64,000 bases of DNA, taken from NCBI RefSeq assembly GCF_004135935.1, contig NZ_CP025086.1, positions 124,001 through 188,000 of the forward strand. Direction: 5' to 3'. The stretch's first letter is position 1. Each line of letters opens with the position of its first letter. The position numbers and the translations under genes were made by a program. The notes under the pieces are model-generated. The model was not told the DNA's origin and did no database searches. It worked only from the letters and a program-made list of their open reading frames with translations. This DNA is from Methylovirgula ligni (lineage in GTDB: Bacteria > Pseudomonadota > Alphaproteobacteria > Rhizobiales > Beijerinckiaceae). Shown here piece after piece: positions 8,012 to 19,870 of this stretch.

Positions 8012-8242
8012 GTGCCGCTCTACAGCTACCATTGTTCGAAATGCGACAAGGATTTTGAGCTGCTGGTGCGTTCCAGCGACACGCCCGCCTGCCCCACCTG
8101 CGGCAATATCGAGATCGCGCAGCAGGTCTCCTTCGTGGCGCCGGAGAACAAAAGCCGCGCCTTCCTGCGCGGGGCGCGCGACCAGGCGGCGCGCGAGGGC
8201 CATCTGAGCAATTTCAGCCGCTCCGAGCGTGGCGGGAGCTAA
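8012..8242 (+). CDS. FmdB-family zinc-ribbon protein
   Basis: 76 residues. A small putative regulatory protein with a zinc ribbon (CSKC and CPTC) starting PLYSYHC, typical of FmdB/CxxC_CxxC_SSSS proteins whose function is poorly known. The longest ORF starts earlier, inside metH, but GTG at 8012 is preceded by a perfect AGGAGG (7999-8004) at 7 bases and gives the family's usual N terminus. The stop codon overlaps the stop of the convergent amidase gene. Confidence 0.85.
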   Translation: MPLYSYHCSKCDKDFELLVRSSDTPACPTCGNIEIAQQVSFVAPENKSRAFLRGARDQAAREGHLSNFSRSERGGS

Positions 8243-8985
8243 CTCGACGCCAGCAAATCCTGCAGAGTCTTCAGCGTCGAAAGATCGGCTTTGCCGTCGA
8301 TTCGCGCGGGCCGGAAATGGCGCTGGAAGGCAATCACCACTTTCTCGGTCTGATCGTCATAGACCCCCGTGACGTCGAGTCCGTAACCATAGGCCACGAG
8401 TTTGCGCTGAAGGTTCCAGACTTCCGCGCCTTCGTCGCCCAAGCTCAAGCCCGCATCGGGGCCCAGCGGATGCGGCGGCACATAATGGCCGACCCCGGCC
8501 GACGCGAGCTTCGCCCACGGAAAAAGCTCACCCGGATCGGCTTTGCGCTCCGGTGCAATGTCCGAATGCGCGAGAATGTCTTGCGGCGGAATCCCATACC
8601 GCTGCGCGATGTCCCGGCAAAGCGCGATGACGGCTTCGATCTGCGCATCGGGAAACGCCGGGTTCCCGAAATCATGGCCGCCATTGACGATCTCGATGCC
8701 GATCGAAGCGGAATTCATGTCGGTCTCGCCGGCCCAAGAACTTTTACCGGCGTGCCAGGCGCGGCGGGCCTCGGGCACGAGCTGAAATATCCGCCCGTCT
8801 TCCTCGACGACATAATGCGCTGAAACTTCCGACGCCGGATCGCGCAAGCGCTCCAGAGCCGCGGCGCCCGTCTTCATGCCGGTGTAGTGCAGGATGATCG
8901 CGCGCGGCACCTGCTCGTCCCTGTCGCCATGGTTCGGCGAGGGATGCGCGACGGCCAAGGGACTGTCAGGCGCGAAATCTTGCAT
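8239..8985 (-). CDS. N-acetylmuramoyl-L-alanine amidase (AmpD/AmiD type) with peptidoglycan-binding domain
   Basis: 248 residues. An Amidase_2 domain (roughly residues 25-165) has the zinc-binding histidines in ILHYTG and LAHSDIAPERKADPGE, and the GIEIVNGG core strand. A C-terminal PG_binding_1 domain spans about residues 175-245 (LQRKLVAYGYG, FQRHFRP). It cleaves the amide between MurNAc and L-Ala, in anhydro-muropeptide recycling or turnover. No signal peptide is evident, which favours a cytoplasmic AmpD-like role, although the peptidoglycan-binding domain is more AmiD-like. Convergent with fmdB, with overlapping stop codons. Confidence 0.9.
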   Translation of the reverse strand: MQDFAPDSPLAVAHPSPNHGDRDEQVPRAIILHYTGMKTGAAALERLRDPASEVSAHYVVEEDGRIFQLVPEARRAWHAGKSSWAGETDMNSASIGIEIVNGGHDFGNPAFPDAQIEAVIALCRDIAQRYGIPPQDILAHSDIAPERKADPGELFPWAKLASAGVGHYVPPHPLGPDAGLSLGDEGAEVWNLQRKLVAYGYGLDVTGVYDDQTEKVVIAFQRHFRPARIDGKADLSTLKTLQDLLASS

Positions 8986-9460: not shown

Positions 9461-9846
9461 AGCCGGCCAGTCGGCTGGATGGCCGCCGCTTTTGCGGAGG
9501 AAAGTCCGGGCTCCATAGAGACACGGTGCCGGATAACGTCCGGCGGGGGTGACCCCAGGGATAGCGCCACAGAAACGAGACCGCCCGCCGGTTCGCCGGC
9601 AGGCAAGGGTGAAACGGTGCGGTAAGAGCGCACCGCGTGGCTGGTAACAGTCGCGGCATGGCAAGCCCCACCGGGAGCAAAACCGAATAGGGGCGCAGGC
9701 GGTCTCGCAAGAGGCCGCAGGGCCGTCTCTGGCCCGCGTCCGGGTAGGTTGCTTGAGACGGTCGGCAACGGCCGTCCCAGAGGAATGGCCATCACGCGCG
9801 CTTCGCGCGCCATACCAAACCCGGCTTATAGGCCGACTGGCAATTT
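9461..9846 (+). ncRNA. rnpB: RNase P RNA, bacterial type A
   Basis: Catalytic RNA of RNase P, which matures tRNA 5' ends. Helix P1 is perfect: GCCAGTCGGC (9467-9476) pairs with GCCGACTGGC (9832-9841). The hallmark GAGGAAAGTCCGGGCTC follows at about 9498 (P4/J3-4 region), a GGTAACAG-type segment is in the middle, and AGAGGAATGGCC and ACCAAACCCGGCTTA appear near the 3' end. A T run (9844-9848) directly follows P1. Ends are approximate by a few bases. It converges with the giant coiled-coil gene. Confidence 0.95.
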
Positions 9847-9881
9847 TTACGCGCCATTTTTACGGGCCGTGCGTGGCCGGC

Positions 9882-12800
9882 TTAGTTCAGCCGGCCCGCC
9901 GCGTGCGCAAGCATCGTATAGACCTTGCCCGTCTCCGAGGTGAGATAGGTGCGGGTCAGCGTGTCGTCGCGATCGTCGCGGCTGACATCGGCAAGCAGGC
10001 GCTCGAATTCCTGGATATAGCGATCGACCGTGATGCGGAATTCGCTGTCGCCACGATAGCGGCGGCGGATTTCCTCGAAGGTCTGCGCGCCGCGGCCGAT
10101 GTAGATGCCGCGCGCGAAGGCTCCGCTCTCGCCGCTGCGATAGCGATCCCATGCCTCGGCGATCGCCGCGTGATCGACCATCCGCGCGATATCGTGGGAG
10201 ATCGTCTCCAGCGGCTCCGAGGCCGCGGCGGCGCGCCCGATCGCGGGCAGGCCACGCGGCGGCGACGGCTCTTCCGGCTGGAACGGCCGGCGCGGCGTCT
10301 GCTGATCCTCGCGCGAGGCGCGGGCCAGCAGATCGGACAGCCAGCCAGGGCTACGGTCGGCGGCCGCGGGACGCGGTGGTGCCGCCGGCGCCGGTGCCGG
10401 GCGTGCCGCACGCGGCGGCTCGGACCGTGCGGGCTCCAGCCGTCGCGCGGGTGCGGCCTCACGCGGGGCGGTCACCGGGTCCGAAAGATCGTAGGAATGC
10501 CCGGAACGCGCGACGATATCCGTCAGCTCGTTGAGCGCCTTGATCTGATCGGCGACGGCCCGGCGCATTGCTGCGGTTTGCTCGGCCGTCTCCTGCGGCA
10601 GGCCGACGGCGTTGCGGCGGACTTCCTCGCGGGTCGTCTCCAGCTCGCGCTGGATCTCGCGGGCAATGCCGCGCATCTCCGCCGCGGCCGTCTGGAACCG
10701 CGCCGTCGATTTGCCGAAGATATCTTCGATCTCGGCGCTCGCCTGCTGATAGGCCGCCTGCAGAAGCTCGGCGGTGCGCTCGCGCTCGCTGCCGATCGAA
10801 GCACGGATATCACTGAATTGCCGTTCCACCTGGCCTGCCGTCATCTGCGATGTATTCGCCAGATATGACCCGATCTCCTCCGCGCGCGCCTCGGCGCGGC
10901 CGAAGGCTTCATCGACGAGAGCCTGGAACGACCCCATCACACCTTCGAATTCCTCGCGCCGGGCCGCAACGGTGGTCAAAAGGCTTTCGATCGCGCCGCG
11001 GCGTTCGTGGAGCGTCCGGTCGAGTTCAACCTGCGAGCGCGACAGATCGGCGGCGGCGGCGGCTAAAGACTGCTGCTGTTGCGCGATAACCTGATAGAGC
11101 GCCTCGGCGCTGCTGATCGTCGAACCGGCATTGGCGCCGAGGCTCTCGATCTGCTCGCCGATGTTGGCGGTCGCCCGTTCGAATTCGGCGATGCGCGCGG
11201 CAAGAGCGATTTCGACACTCGCGAAGCTCGCCTGGGCGCTTTCAACAGTCCGCTGCACGGCGGCGTTCTTCTCATCGAGAGCGCCGATGGCTTCAGTCAT
11301 GCCAGCGCGCACCTGATGATGCGTGGAGACAAGCGAATCGACCGAAGCGCTGGCGCCGGCCGCCAGAGCAGTGTTGAGGCTTTGCGTCGATTGATCGAGC
11401 GTGGCGGCGAGTTCCGCCTGCTTCTGGCCAATCCTTTCGACAAGATCCGAACCCTTCGTGTCGAGGACGGCACGGATGTCGTCGGACCGTGCGCTGAGCG
11501 TGTCGTGCAAATTGCCGCCGCGCTCGTCGAGCGTGGCCTGCAGCTCGACCAGGCGCCCCGCCAAAGTCGAGCCGATCTCGTTGACGCGGCCCGCAAGGAC
11601 CCCGCCGATCTCGGCGATACGGCCGGCGAGCGTGGTGTCCAGATCTTGCGAGGCCTGGCCAAGCAGACTGCGCAGCGCATCGGCACGGCCACTCAGCAGA
11701 CCTTCGAGCTGGCCCGATTCGTGGTCGAGCGCGGCGCTGATCGAGCCGGTGTGGTGGGCAAGCGTCTGGTCGATCTCCTGCGCCCGCGCCGCCAGATTGT
11801 CGGAGAGCTCGCGCCCCCGCTGGTCGAGGTCACTGGTGACGAGATCGAGCCGGCCGACGATCTGCTCCTCGAAGCGGGCGATGCGGCTATCAAGCGTATC
11901 GGCGATCTCGCTGGCGCGAACGCCCAGCACCTCGTTCACGTCCTGCGCCTGATCGGACAAGGTCTGCGCGATCTCGATCGCGCGGCCGCCCAGCAGACGG
12001 TTGACCTCGTCGGCCTTGACCGAGAGAGTCTGCGCGATCTCCGTGGCACGCGCCCCCAGCACTTGATCGACCTCATCGGCTTTGGCCGACAGCAGCAGTG
12101 CAATTTCCGCCGCCCGGCCTGCCAGAGAGGCGTTGATTTCGCCGGCACGCGCATCGAAGGTCGTATTGATCTCGTTGGTCTGACTGCTCAGGACCGCGCT
12201 GATTTCCTCCGCGCGATTTGCCAGCAAATCGCCGATGCCGGCGGTGCTCGCGCTCAGTAAATGATGCGCTTCGCCGGCCTTTTCGGCGAAATTCTCGGTA
12301 AAGGCCGCGACCTGCTGCGCCAGATCGGCATTGATCGCTTCGGCGCGCGCCTCGAGCGCCTGCGTAACTTCGCGATTGCCATCGCTCAGCACGCGGGCGA
12401 TTTCGAGCGTCCGTGCGGCAAGCGTCTCGTGCAGCGTGCGGGCACGTCCATCAAGCGCATTGTCGATCCGGCCAAGCAGCCCTTCCAGCGAATCGGCGAC
12501 CTGCTGCGCCCGTGCGGAGGCGCGATCGTCCAGATTCTGCGCCTGCTCGGCGAAGACCGCGACGGTATGATCGTTGTGCTCGGAGAGCTTGCGGTCGAGT
12601 TCGCCGCCCTGGTTGTCGAGCACGCCCTGCAATGTCTCGAAATGCGAGGAGAGCCGAGCCGCGAGCGCATCGGCGCTTTCGCCAAGCCGCTCGGCGATCT
12701 CGTTACCGTGGCCGGAAATGGCATCCTCGAACCGCGCGAGCCGCTCGGACAAAGTCTCGTTGATACGCTCGCCATGCGTCGCGATGGCGCCGATGGCATC

Positions 12801-14537
12801 GCCCGCCGTCTCGGCGAAGCGATCGTTGAGCGTCCCCGCGTGATAAGCGAAACTGTCGAAAGATTCTTGCGCCGTGGCCGCGAGGCGCTCGTGCATCCGC
12901 TCGGAATGTGCCGTGAGCGTCGAGGAGGAGTCCTCGAGCACGGCGGCGGCGCGAGCGCTCGCATCGTCGAGCTTTTGCGCGATTTCGCTGATGAGGCTCT
13001 GGCCGCTGTCGCGCAAATGCGTGTCGACATCGGCGAGCCTTTGCGTCAGGTCATTCGAGACTTGATCGAAGGCCGAGGTCGCCCCGCTCAGCGCCAGGGC
13101 AGCGCGCTCGCTCGCATCGTCGAGCTTCTGCGCGATATCGCTGACGAGGCTCTGGCCACTGTCACGCAAATGCGCGTCGACATCAGCGAACTTTTGCGTC
13201 AGGTCGTTCGAGACTTGATCGAAGGCCGAGGTCGCCCCGCTCAGCGCCAGGGCGGCGCGCTCGCTCGCATCGTTCAGCCGCTGCGTAATATGGCTCGCAA
13301 AAGCCTCGCCGGTTTCGTTGAGATGGGCGTCGATCTCGCTGAGGCGCTGATTGAAGCTTTGCGCCAGTTCGGAGTTGGCGCGCCCGATGCTCGCTTCGAC
13401 GGCCTCACGCGCCTGATCGAGCCGGCCGATAATGTCCTCGCCGTGAGCGGCCAGCGCGCCGACCAGATCTTCGCCCGCCTGAGCGAGCGAGAAGCGGATT
13501 TCCTCGGCCTTGGCGCCGAGCGAATTGGTGATGCGATTGCCGGTGCCGTTAAGGTTTTCGGTCAGGCCGCCGGCGGCGCTGTCGAGCTCGCGGGCAAAGG
13601 AATCCTGCGCACTGCCGATCGCCGCACGCATCCGCTCGCTGTTGGCGAGCATCGATTCGCGCTCGGTCGTCAGCTCGTCAACGAGCGAACGGATCCGGCG
13701 CTCGTTTTCCGAATAGGAACGCTCGAGATTGGAGACCTCGGAACGTACCAGGGTTTCAAGTTCGCCCGCGCGGGCCAGTGCCCGCTCGATGCCGTCGCCC
13801 ATCGAGACGATCTCGCGGCGGATGGCTTGCGACAACGTCACCATTTGCTCGCTGGCGATCGTCTCCGGAGCGGAAAGCCGCATCGCGATCTCAACCATCG
13901 AACGCGCGGTCAGACGCATCTCCTGCGCCCGGCGCGCCAAGAGCGCGGTGACGACGAAGAAAATGACCGGCCCAAGCGCGATAATCGCGAACAACGCGGT
14001 CTCCGGACGCAGGGCCGAAGCGCCGGGAACCAGAAGTTCGGCACGATGCGCGCCGAAATAAAGCCCGGCGAGAACGAGCCAGACTAAAGACAAAAGCCCG
14101 GCAATGACCAACGGCGCCGGGCTCGGGCGCTGGTTCAGCGCCCGGAGCATCGCGCCGACGGAATGGCGGTCATCGTTGGCCGGCGCGCCAGCCGGCTGGA
14201 CGGGCGCCTGGCTGGCGGCAAAATCGCTCTGCCCCGCCGACTTTCCGGTCTCCGGCTTCTTTGGCACGAAGAGCGGGTGTTCCTCGACCTCCGGCAGGCG
14301 CGGCAGCGAACGATCGTCCGGGCCGAACGACGGCACACCGAGCGCCGGTCCTTCCGGATAGCGCCGCATGACCTTCGGCGTCTTGTCGGGGTCGGAAGCC
14401 TTCGGGAAAATCGGCGTCGAAATCTCCGGCGCCTTATTTTCATCCTCGGCGGGCGAGTCGGCGGAAAGGTTCAACGCCTCTTCGATCGCCGACAGCGCCG
14501 CAGCCGCCGGATCTTGCGCCTTATTGGACGTCGCCAT
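9882..14537 (-). CDS. GPR/RgsE-like giant membrane-anchored coiled-coil protein (polar growth)
   Basis: 1551 residues. An acidic, Pro-rich cytoplasmic N terminus (1-140), two transmembrane helices (about 142-162 and 182-201), then over 1000 residues of almost continuous coiled coil with apolipoprotein-like repeats (recurrent RAxEI and LSxRAxEI units), and a compact conserved C-terminal domain containing FEEIRRRYRGDSEF and YIQEFERLL. This architecture matches the growth pole ring protein of Agrobacterium and RgsE of Sinorhizobium, large proteins that organise unipolar peptidoglycan growth. Those are near 2000 residues; this one is shorter. Residues in the middle include a near-perfect 51-residue tandem duplication. 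Orthology is inferred from architecture and remembered C-terminal motifs. Long plus-strand ORFs over it are shadows. Confidence 0.75.
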   Translation of the reverse strand: MATSNKAQDPAAAALSAIEEALNLSADSPAEDENKAPEISTPIFPKASDPDKTPKVMRRYPEGPALGVPSFGPDDRSLPRLPEVEEHPLFVPKKPETGKSAGQSDFAASQAPVQPAGAPANDDRHSVGAMLRALNQRPSPAPLVIAGLLSLVWLVLAGLYFGAHRAELLVPGASALRPETALFAIIALGPVIFFVVTALLARRAQEMRLTARSMVEIAMRLSAPETIASEQMVTLSQAIRREIVSMGDGIERALARAGELETLVRSEVSNLERSYSENERRIRSLVDELTTERESMLANSERMRAAIGSAQDSFARELDSAAGGLTENLNGTGNRITNSLGAKAEEIRFSLAQAGEDLVGALAAHGEDIIGRLDQAREAVEASIGRANSELAQSFNQRLSEIDAHLNETGEAFASHITQRLNDASERAALALSGATSAFDQVSNDLTQKFADVDAHLRDSGQSLVSDIAQKLDDASERAALALSGATSAFDQVSNDLTQRLADVDTHLRDSGQSLISEIAQKLDDASARAAAVLEDSSSTLTAHSERMHERLAATAQESFDSFAYHAGTLNDRFAETAGDAIGAIATHGERINETLSERLARFEDAISGHGNEIAERLGESADALAARLSSHFETLQGVLDNQGGELDRKLSEHNDHTVAVFAEQAQNLDDRASARAQQVADSLEGLLGRIDNALDGRARTLHETLAARTLEIARVLSDGNREVTQALEARAEAINADLAQQVAAFTENFAEKAGEAHHLLSASTAGIGDLLANRAEEISAVLSSQTNEINTTFDARAGEINASLAGRAAEIALLLSAKADEVDQVLGARATEIAQTLSVKADEVNRLLGGRAIEIAQTLSDQAQDVNEVLGVRASEIADTLDSRIARFEEQIVGRLDLVTSDLDQRGRELSDNLAARAQEIDQTLAHHTGSISAALDHESGQLEGLLSGRADALRSLLGQASQDLDTTLAGRIAEIGGVLAGRVNEIGSTLAGRLVELQATLDERGGNLHDTLSARSDDIRAVLDTKGSDLVERIGQKQAELAATLDQSTQSLNTALAAGASASVDSLVSTHHQVRAGMTEAIGALDEKNAAVQRTVESAQASFASVEIALAARIAEFERATANIGEQIESLGANAGSTISSAEALYQVIAQQQQSLAAAAADLSRSQVELDRTLHERRGAIESLLTTVAARREEFEGVMGSFQALVDEAFGRAEARAEEIGSYLANTSQMTAGQVERQFSDIRASIGSERERTAELLQAAYQQASAEIEDIFGKSTARFQTAAAEMRGIAREIQRELETTREEVRRNAVGLPQETAEQTAAMRRAVADQIKALNELTDIVARSGHSYDLSDPVTAPREAAPARRLEPARSEPPRAARPAPAPAAPPRPAAADRSPGWLSDLLARASREDQQTPRRPFQPEEPSPPRGLPAIGRAAAASEPLETISHDIARMVDHAAIAEAWDRYRSGESGAFARGIYIGRGAQTFEEIRRRYRGDSEFRITVDRYIQEFERLLADVSRDDRDDTLTRTYLTSETGKVYTMLAHAAGRLN
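12961..13266. repeat. Tandem 153-bp repeat within the GPR-like gene
   Basis: Two adjacent units (12961-13113 and 13114-13266) plus partial flanking similarity keep the reading frame (51 codons). The encoded unit includes ALALSGATSAFDQVSNDLTQ and HLRDSGQSL. The units are nearly identical at DNA level, unlike the diverged coiled-coil repeats around them, so the duplication is recent or homogenised. Confidence 0.85.
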
Positions 14538-14853: not shown

Positions 14854-15222
14854 ATGAAGCCGGCGTTGACCGAAGAGATAGTACGATCGGTGAAGACGTT
14901 CGATCCGCATCATCTCGCGTCGCAAACCGGCGGCGATACGGCGCTTCAACGCGAACTGCTGATACTCTTTGCCGACCAATCCACAGCGATCCTGTCAGCA
15001 CTGGACGATCCCGCCGCCACGCCGCTTGCCCGCGCCGATCTCGCACACAAACTCACGGGCTCTGCCAGGGCCGTCGGCGCCTTTGCCCTCGCGGAAGCCG
15101 CCGCAGCCGCGGAGGCCGAGTGGCGGGCGGGCGCCGCCGCGCCAGACGCATTTGCGCGCCTTCCCGGCGCCAGCGAGGCCGCATTGGCGGCCATCCGGCG
15201 CCATCTCGGCGAGCGTCCGTAG
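14854..15222 (+). CDS. Orphan histidine phosphotransfer (HPt) domain protein
   Basis: 122 residues forming a single HPt helical bundle. The phospho-acceptor is His65 in DLAHKLTGSARAVGAF, the typical AHxLKGS-like signature. Such proteins relay phosphate between a hybrid kinase receiver and a response regulator. No kinase or regulator gene adjoins it. It is divergent from the GPR-like gene. Partner unknown. Confidence 0.8.
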   Translation: MKPALTEEIVRSVKTFDPHHLASQTGGDTALQRELLILFADQSTAILSALDDPAATPLARADLAHKLTGSARAVGAFALAEAAAAAEAEWRAGAAAPDAFARLPGASEAALAAIRRHLGERP

Positions 15223-15397: not shown

Positions 15398-16845
<1,448 letters not shown>

Positions 16846-18775: not shown

Positions 18776-19870
18776 TTAGTTCTTATGTGCCGCGTCGGGG
18801 GTTTTCTTTTCCGACTGGAAAAGAAATGGCGCGACATCGCCAATGCCGGGAGAAGATTCGACCTCGAAGGGCATCGGCCGGCACACCGCCATGGCGGAAA
18901 GGCCGACGCGCGCAGTCAGCATGCCGTTCAGCACCCCCTCTCCCAGCCGCGCCGAAAGTTTCGCCGCGATGCCGTGCCCGACGACCTGCTGGATCAGCGA
19001 ATCGCCGATGGCGACGCCGCCAGTGATCGCAAGATGCGCTCCGACCGAGCGCATCAGCTTGATGAAGCCGAAAAAGCCCGGGCGTCCGCCATAAATCTCC
19101 GAAATCCGTCGTACCAGCCGCAGCGCCTGCGCGGCAACGAAAGCGACATCGATGAGCGCGCGCGGCGAAATCGCCGTCACCATCGAGACGCGCTTGGCGG
19201 CGCCGGCGATCTCGCGCGCAACGTTGCGATCGAGCGGCAGGACGAGGTCGCGCTCGGCAATGTCGATGAGATCGCGTCCGTCGATAATCTCCTTGGTAAG
19301 GTCGAGCAGATTGGCACGCACGGCGGCGTTCGCGCCGCGCTTGGCCTGCAGGCCGACAAGCTCAGCGACGAGACGGCGCGCCGCGTCGCGATCGTCGGCC
19401 GCGCGCGCGGCGGCAAAGCTCATATGCATATGCGCGATCTTGCTTTGCCGGGCGATGCTCCAGATTTCGCGCGCCGCCATTACGGCCAGCGCGAAAAGCG
19501 CAAGGCCGCCGAGGCCGACCGCCACATAGCCCAGCACTTTCGAGCGCGAGAAAAGCTCAACGACGAGCGAGATCAGCCAATTGCTCAAGGCAACCAGGAT
19601 GAAGCCGCCGGCCGCGGAAAAGAACAGCCCGCCCCAGGATATGAGGCTGCTGCGCGTGATGCCGCGGCCCTGTGCCGATTCGACCGCGCGTTCGGCCGGA
19701 TCGATGGGCGCCACCGCCTTCGCGGCCTCGGCCTCGACGAAATCCTCGACCGGCTCGAGCGTGAACGTCTCGGGCATGGGCTCCGCCGCGCCCGGCTTGC
19801 CGATTCGAAACGCCTGAGGCTTTATCTTTGCTTCGCTCGCCACGGAAATCCTCTTTGAGCCCTCAATCAA
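18776..19870 (-). CDS. YcjF/UPF0283 (DUF697) inner-membrane protein
   Basis: 364 residues. An acidic N-terminal region, then a pair of hydrophobic helices (about 75-100 and 110-130), and a C-terminal helical domain with ISPRALIDVAFVAAQALR and IGDSLIQQVVGHGIAAKLSARLGEG segments separated by a few residues, typical of TIGR01620/YcjF. It overlaps the end of ycjX by 8 bases and the two always pair, though their role (envelope stress-associated in E. coli) is not settled. Confidence 0.88.
   Translation of the reverse strand: MIEGSKRISVASEAKIKPQAFRIGKPGAAEPMPETFTLEPVEDFVEAEAAKAVAPIDPAERAVESAQGRGITRSSLISWGGLFFSAAGGFILVALSNWLISLVVELFSRSKVLGYVAVGLGGLALFALAVMAAREIWSIARQSKIAHMHMSFAAARAADDRDAARRLVAELVGLQAKRGANAAVRANLLDLTKEIIDGRDLIDIAERDLVLPLDRNVAREIAGAAKRVSMVTAISPRALIDVAFVAAQALRLVRRISEIYGGRPGFFGFIKLMRSVGAHLAITGGVAIGDSLIQQVVGHGIAAKLSARLGEGVLNGMLTARVGLSAMAVCRPMPFEVESSPGIGDVAPFLFQSEKKTPDAAHKN

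Follow-up and report, generated by a model that had tools for sequence, protein, structure and literature searches.

The window, a stretch of 64,000 nucleotides from Methylovirgula ligni, encodes a 1551-residue protein that, judged by its sequence, is an orthologue of RgsE and an ordinary member of the known GPR/RgsE family. The protein itself adds one more RgsE; the interest may lie in the variation of length, with register kept, across its relatives. The long central coil is an array of 11-residue (hendecad) units. In the family, this coil gains and loses length mostly in 11-residue steps, with the register maintained and the length varying several-fold. Two readings are qualified by the results: the mutual exclusivity of RgsE and MreB, and the use of the apolipoprotein match as an argument for lipid binding.

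Anatomy and kinship of the protein

The gene lies at 9882..14537 on the minus strand, as an open frame of 1551 codons read from 14537 to 9882 with an ATG at 14537. The initial annotation had given this frame correctly, without the strand. The choice of ATG is backed by the start motif MAT..KAQDPAAAALSAIEEALNL, common to many relatives. The conserved N-terminal motif MATSNKAQDPAAAALSAIEEALNL (residues 1-24, 14466..14537, minus strand) has a similar counterpart at the start of many relatives and is mostly missing from those with short coils. The protein has a single whole-length match in its own 3.30-Mb genome. A scan of the locus for promoters and terminators yielded nothing clearly exceeding chance. 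Two antisense open frames face the gene on the plus strand, at 12261-14087 (608 codons) and 9753-10868 (371 codons); long antisense frames are common opposite GC-rich coding DNA.

Two N-terminal membrane helices, as initially annotated, are confirmed by the alignment with RgsE, by AF2 helices and by the hydropathy of L002, a near-identical relative from a Methylovirgula MAG. They span approximately residues 142-162 (14052..14114, minus strand) and 181-200 (13938..13997, minus strand), with limits set by eye. They are followed by a conserved feature that was absent from the earlier anatomy, a juxtamembrane helix module (residues ~203-315, 13593..13931, minus strand). Of the 14 invariant columns in a 40-sequence alignment of residues 120-330, 12 are located in this stretch, as are 14 of the 16 that are nearly invariant. 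Modelled with AF2, the same region shows one helix per membrane segment, the second of which continues out of the membrane as a long helix that is broken beside an invariant Pro; with a pTM of 0.44, only the local structure of this model counts. A profile search with the N-terminal region gave a best E of 0.071.

The coil ends at a proline-rich linker (residues ~1335-1437, 10227..10535, minus strand), identified from the sequence with its start set by the proline rule described below. The conserved C-terminal domain, also anticipated initially, comprises about 112 residues (1440-1551, 9885..10220, minus strand) and is recognizable in relatives and in the RgsE alignment. AF2 predicts a confident, all-helical fold (mean pLDDT 88.9, pTM 0.82). 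We could not assign this domain to a known fold, as the matches from all three approaches were weak: Foldseek gave a best E of 1.4 and VIA-align a best Z of 3.9 over 51 residues, neither a convincing PDB match, and the profile comparison with PDB sequences reached a best E of 0.02, to designed proteins.

The C-terminal 112 residues match five records of a plasmid collection, four from Sinorhizobium and one from Shinella, at 58.6-59.5% identity. The S. meliloti match is a 6270-bp CDS annotated as 'kinesin', with a product of 2089 aa; RgsE has a published length of 2089 aa (PMC7327166). The initial annotation had proposed a comparison of the C-terminal 110 residues with GPR/RgsE. In pairwise alignment with S. 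meliloti RgsE (SMc00190), 65 of 111 residues are identical at the C terminus (59%, E 3e-47), as are 76 of 162 (47%) in the membrane and juxtamembrane region. The two genomes also share their surroundings. Upstream of the gene, both carry divergent genes for an Hpt-domain protein (14854..15222, plus strand; Pfam Hpt at 26 bits, cut-off 24.6) and a 2Fe-2S ferredoxin (15398..15718, plus strand; Pfam Fer2), each in a conserved position. A YcjF-like DUF697 protein is encoded further away (18776..19870, minus strand), and a YcjF-family gene is also found near S. meliloti rgsE. The identities in the C-terminal and membrane regions and the shared neighbours are the basis for calling the protein an RgsE orthologue, and the GPR/RgsE-type identity first suggested for it holds.

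The neighbourhood is widely preserved in the order, Rhizobiales. Where a locus includes 2.5 kb or more of DNA upstream of the gene, Hpt is present in 49 of 60 loci labelled MreB-negative and 26 of 26 labelled MreB-positive, and Fer2 in 56 of 60 and 26 of 26, respectively. Outside the order, Hpt occurs in 7 of 18 loci and Fer2 in 1 of 18. In the tree, the protein is placed among the hendecad-type members, adjoining its own genus, with the RgsE-type proteins of the order. S. meliloti RgsE has the same TM pair, juxtamembrane module, C-terminal domain and Hpt and 2Fe-2S neighbours, and is reported to be 42% identical to GPR (PMC7327166). GPR of A. tumefaciens (Atu1348), which we liken to the Methylovirgula protein by description and not by sequence, is described as having two N-terminal TM segments, ~1700 aa of helical sequence, a proline-rich region and a C terminus that is required for function (PMC8262873); it differs in its length of 2115 aa.

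Directly downstream of the gene lies an amidase gene (8239-8985, minus strand), encoding an AmpD-like N-acetylmuramoyl-L-alanine amidase with a PG-binding domain. Of 120 other loci, many of which include little downstream DNA, 6 have a relative of it downstream and in the same orientation. Among the plasmid records, the 3.72-Mb CP090106.1 (L008), labelled S. meliloti Ak57 'plasmid pSymB', holds rgsE together with cytochrome bc1 and folate genes and is probably a mislabelled chromosome. The Shinella record NZ_CP069303.1 (4.6 Mb, 'plasmid') also holds the gene.

A hendecad coil

The hydrophobic residues of the coil recur with a period of 3.662 (= 11/3) at a spectral power of 101. The highest power among 200 residue shuffles is 10.4, and among 200 block shuffles, which keep local amphipathicity, it is 42.1. 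The phase at 11/3 stays within ~100 degrees over residues ~300-1090 (about 790 residues; 11268..13640, minus strand) and is lost afterwards, in the less regular coil end delimited by the phase analysis (residues ~1091-1334, 10536..11267, minus strand). Three positions stand out as apolar, L (0.72 LIVMF), I/L (0.63) and A/L (0.40), spaced 4-3-4 with Arg and Glu nearby, and two further positions reach 0.22 and 0.31 LIVMF. Proline accounts for 0.3% of the coil and Trp is absent.

RgsE has a similar coil period of 3.655, and most long coils in the order fall between 3.653 and 3.668. A clade of 38 shorter-coil proteins (support 100 in a quick tree) lies mostly at 3.59-3.63, and 20 proteins from outside the order at 3.567 to 3.634. 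The exceptions are G147 and its genus, g77, at 3.605-3.638, and G032 (3.668) and G062 (3.658) within the short-coil clade. We rejected the 11/3 period as a mark of cells that lack MreB: it is present in the MreB-positive G060, G061, G098 and G062, and missing from 14 MreB-negative proteins. In the limited set of publications consulted, neither a hendecad register nor indels in steps of 11 residues are described for GPR/RgsE, and by a word count 'hendecad' does not appear in PMC8262873.

The very long apolipoprotein-like helical region noted initially is present, with the whole protein matching PF01442 at 185 bits (cut-off 90) and coil residues 301-1070 alone at 192 bits. A lipid-binding surface that organises membrane growth, in place of a coiled-coil rod, has already been proposed for GPR (PMC8262873) and would agree with this match. 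We scrambled residues 301-1070 once within equal phases modulo 11 and shuffled them once completely. The phase-keeping scramble still scores 106 bits, above the cut-off, and the full shuffle gives no match. Because the 11-residue periodicity is enough to yield a match above the cut-off, the match in itself is no evidence of lipid binding, and 'apolipoprotein-like' need mean no more than this periodicity. The real coil scores well above its scramble (192 vs 106 bits), so that a similarity beyond periodicity is conceivable. However, the few strongly apolar positions, their 4-3-4 spacing, the adjacent Arg and Glu, the scarcity of proline and the lack of Trp form a pattern that appears to fit a coiled coil better than a lipid surface. 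We therefore regard the lipid-binding alternative as improbable and treat the region as a probable coiled-coil rod.

ZorA models of the Zorya system also match the coil, at up to 71 bits, with the best stretches within residues 284-1028. The phase-keeping scramble still matches them, at up to 59 bits, and the TM region alone matches none of the PADLOC families, with no MotA/ExbB-type membrane domain detected there. Membership in the ZorA or MotA-ExbB-TolQ families was rejected on these grounds, the similarity being one of coil periodicity only.

Coil length and its 11-residue steps

Coil length was measured by one rule: it starts 20 residues past the second membrane helix and ends at the first window of protein sequence that is rich in proline. 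This gives 1114 residues for the Methylovirgula protein and 1647 for RgsE. The protein had been described as shortened, which is true in comparison with GPR (2115 aa) and RgsE (2089 aa) but not with the order. Coils in the first 100 in-order proteins range from 374 to 2550 residues, 55 of them shorter than 1114. A further 40 in-order proteins, fetched for the indel work, are all longer, at 1388 or more. Overall, 55 of 140 in-order relatives, a chosen and not a random set, have a shorter coil. The other frames from the same genus measure 1257 to 1636 aa, save one that is cut by a contig end. Within the 61 proteins of the first 100 that have the hendecad period, 17 have a coil below 1114 residues, placing this coil on the short side of its type. 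For the family as a whole, its length is unremarkable and marks no lower limit. The suggestion that it samples how far the coil can shrink is overstated, given in-order coils down to 374 residues.

To follow changes in length, we used 83 proteins from 20 genera, 18 in the order and two outside (g160 and g273), aligned within genera. The comparison is restricted to spanning-tree pairs that are at least 60% identical, 60 of the 63, and leaves out 80 residues at the beginning of the coil and 100 at its end. Of the coil indels of at least 3 residues, 108 of 164 are multiples of 11, against 5 of 108 in the C-terminal and 2 of 90 in the N-terminal linkers. Two other gap settings gave 116 of 187 and 99 of 149 for the coil. 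The phase concentration of the indels at 11/3 is 0.85 in the coil and 0.32 and 0.18 in the linkers; for indels of at least 10 residues, it is 0.86 in the coil, 0.48 (27 indels) and 0.09 (38 indels) in the linkers. Indels shared by several pairs are counted repeatedly in these figures (for example, 29 and 36 in g77, 40 in g45), and in distant pairs the aligner may favour in-phase gaps. The 23 pairs that are at least 90% identical contain 42 coil indels, from 9 genera. Thirty of these are multiples of 11 and the remaining 12 equal one to three heptads plus any number of hendecads. By our count, 23 of the 68 possible lengths between 3 and 70 would belong to one or other of these two classes by chance.

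The 11-residue steps could arise by mutation alone, through slippage between DNA repeats of 33 or 66 bp or their unequal exchange, and with no selection on the register. The 22-residue step is the commonest in close pairs (18 of 42), and the coil of the Methylovirgula gene itself contains a 66-bp tandem repeat (11962-12089; 1.9 copies, 77% match) and a 153-bp one (12945..13273, minus strand; 2.2 copies, 92% match). The latter is a duplication of 51 residues, or 4 x 11 + 7, which the closest relative does not have. A purely mutational origin fits less well with the indels that are not multiples of 11. Among those of at least 10 residues, the classes 3, 4 and 7 modulo 11, which are near register, account for 34 of 43 in the coil (21 of 27 without g77); in the linkers, they make up 9 of 22 and 15 of 36. 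When all indels of at least 3 residues are included, coil and linkers differ less (46 of 56 vs 59 of 103 and 48 of 88), because short indels of 3 and 4 residues are frequent in every region. In addition, the genus g77, with a period of ~3.61, uses indels of 29 and 36 and has no multiple of 11 among its 17 indels. We consider mutation alone a credible explanation that falls somewhat short of an even chance; slippage and selection for register may act together. A more general rule, that the indels of each lineage follow its own period, was rejected. The fit in g77 is mild (phase concentration 0.90 at 3.607 vs 0.83 at 11/3), and in g273, where the periods are 3.626 and 3.634, indels of 44 and 132 residues occur.

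The retained register makes the question of how long the coil must be a clean experiment, in which changes by whole hendecads are compared with changes that break the register. It is conceivable, though we doubt it, that the coil acts as a register-locked ruler and that its hendecad count fixes a physical distance in the growth pole, such as the diameter of a ring or its offset from the tip. If so, the geometry of the pole would evolve in 11-residue steps, with the 11/3 pitch under selection all the way from the membrane to the C-terminal domain and the count free. That pole geometry depends on coil length at all is a guess.

Distribution, MreB and the proposed role

The C-terminal domain was detected in 39 of 41 near relatives, both misses being drafts (60 and 86% completeness), and, of the 297 genomes sampled from the order, in 291, the misses being G059, G088, G146, G163, G212 and G301. 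In the class sample, where matches with E up to 1e-4 were accepted, it is present in 113 of 289 genomes, including 109 of the 285 from outside the order. Twenty of these 109 outside carriers were fetched; by hydropathy, 12 have two N-terminal membrane helices and 8 have one. The wide spread is partly known from the published survey of RgsE, which reports it in all Rhizobiales families, with distant homologues in Emcibacterales and Rhodospirillales (PMC7327166).

A full-scoring MreB (367 bits or more) is encoded in 33 of the 297 order-sample genomes, and all 33 carry the C-terminal domain. Outside the order, 105 of the 109 domain carriers have MreB, the four without it being G354, G437, G475 and G501. 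Krol et al. described Rgs proteins and MreB as apparently mutually exclusive, and the four MreB-bearing Rhizobiales that they saw had no Rgs homologues (PMC7327166). For RgsE, the Rgs protein examined here, this exclusivity fails in the larger sample. The presence of the gene was initially taken to imply unipolar, budding-like growth. Since the domain coexists with MreB, both within and outside the order, the gene by its presence does not imply such growth. The role of the domain in MreB-bearing bacteria may differ, and Krol et al. likewise allow for a different role in other orders (PMC7327166).

Coil length also differs with MreB. The first 100 in-order proteins consist of 28 labelled MreB-positive and 72 labelled negative. 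The former are what was fetched of the 33, after 5 were dropped as possibly truncated frames of 170-815 aa (G080, G094, G140, G216 and G281). Seven of the 72 were left out, with MreB untested or not clearly negative (L003, L004, L006, L007, L008, L009 and L057, the last from genome G033, in which an MreB fragment scores 103 bits). All 28 MreB-positive proteins have coils below 1000 residues, and 48 of 66 MreB-negative proteins, including that of the window, have coils of at least 1000. The idea that the loss of MreB determines coil length was rejected. The pattern is mostly that of one clade on the tree, the coil class differs in one of six independent pairs that differ in MreB and is the same in five, too few for a test, and outside the order long coils occur together with MreB (G537, G553, G408, G427 and others).

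Polar growth in M. ligni is nevertheless likely, on grounds other than the presence of this gene. Its genome has no MreB, the best match scoring 64.7 bits in a 689-aa frame that is DnaK-like by size. MreC was not found by a search that was positive in 8 of 14 control genomes, and there is only one FtsW/RodA protein. With 11 YkuD matches in addition, the gene set resembles that of A. tumefaciens, which is described as having 14 putative LDTs and lacking MreBCD, RodA and PBP2 (PMC11527210).

Very probably, the protein is an inner-membrane anchored scaffold for polar growth, as GPR and RgsE are. The two membrane helices and the conserved juxtamembrane helix would anchor it in the inner membrane. 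The coil of ~1100 residues, a mostly continuous hendecad array, would extend into the cytoplasm as a stiff rod, for which we calculate ~165 nm at full extension and 0.15 nm per residue, followed by the proline-rich linker and the folded helical C-terminal domain. The protein would most likely self-assemble at the growing pole, and the assembly would most likely act as a scaffold, keeping the machinery that builds wall and membrane in place. Across the family, both end modules are conserved, and lineages maintain their helical register as 11-residue units are gained or lost. A scaffold role in M. ligni is proposed by analogy with published experiments, in which GPR and RgsE form a polar ring or focus, their depletion leads to loss of shape and their overproduction to branching (PMC8262873, PMC7327166). 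Near the tip, GPR is reported to assemble into a ring that is ~200 nm wide and consists of six foci (PMC8262873). Partners named for RgsE are RgsA, RgsS and TolQ (PMC7327166), and Brucella RgsE is reported at the new pole only (PMC9938171).

A general polarity landmark, which marks a pole without directing polar wall growth, would be modelled on TipN of Caulobacter. By description, TipN is likewise a membrane protein with a large cytoplasmic coiled coil at the new pole (PMC4460556, PMC8546619). GPR has been reported as similar to it (PMC8546619), and TipN has been termed analogous (PMC13170164). The occurrence of the C-terminal domain in many MreB-bearing Alphaproteobacteria, some of them with frames of 700-1000 aa, points in the same direction. 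However, the M. ligni copy groups with the RgsE-type proteins of its order, in a genome without MreB and MreC. TipN, set beside it by description only, has 882 aa (PMC13170164) and belongs to an MreB-bearing cell, and is stated not to be encoded in most alphaproteobacterial genomes (PMC5182065). A landmark function is thus unlikely for this protein, for which we favour the polar-growth scaffold. Outside the order, several proteins that have a membrane segment and share the C-terminal domain are encoded by frames of 727-881 aa, a size that would fit that given for TipN.

Four of the six domain-less genomes of the order come from one genus (g76, family f23), and none of the four is MreB-positive; relatives in f23 score weakly. 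A loss or strong divergence of GPR in this MreB-less lineage is possible. A second, weaker copy of the C-terminal domain was observed in L066 (G026), G251, G316 and G511. The second copies sit in frames of 414-448 aa or, in G511, in a second long protein, with that of L066 ending at a contig end, and are possible paralogues.
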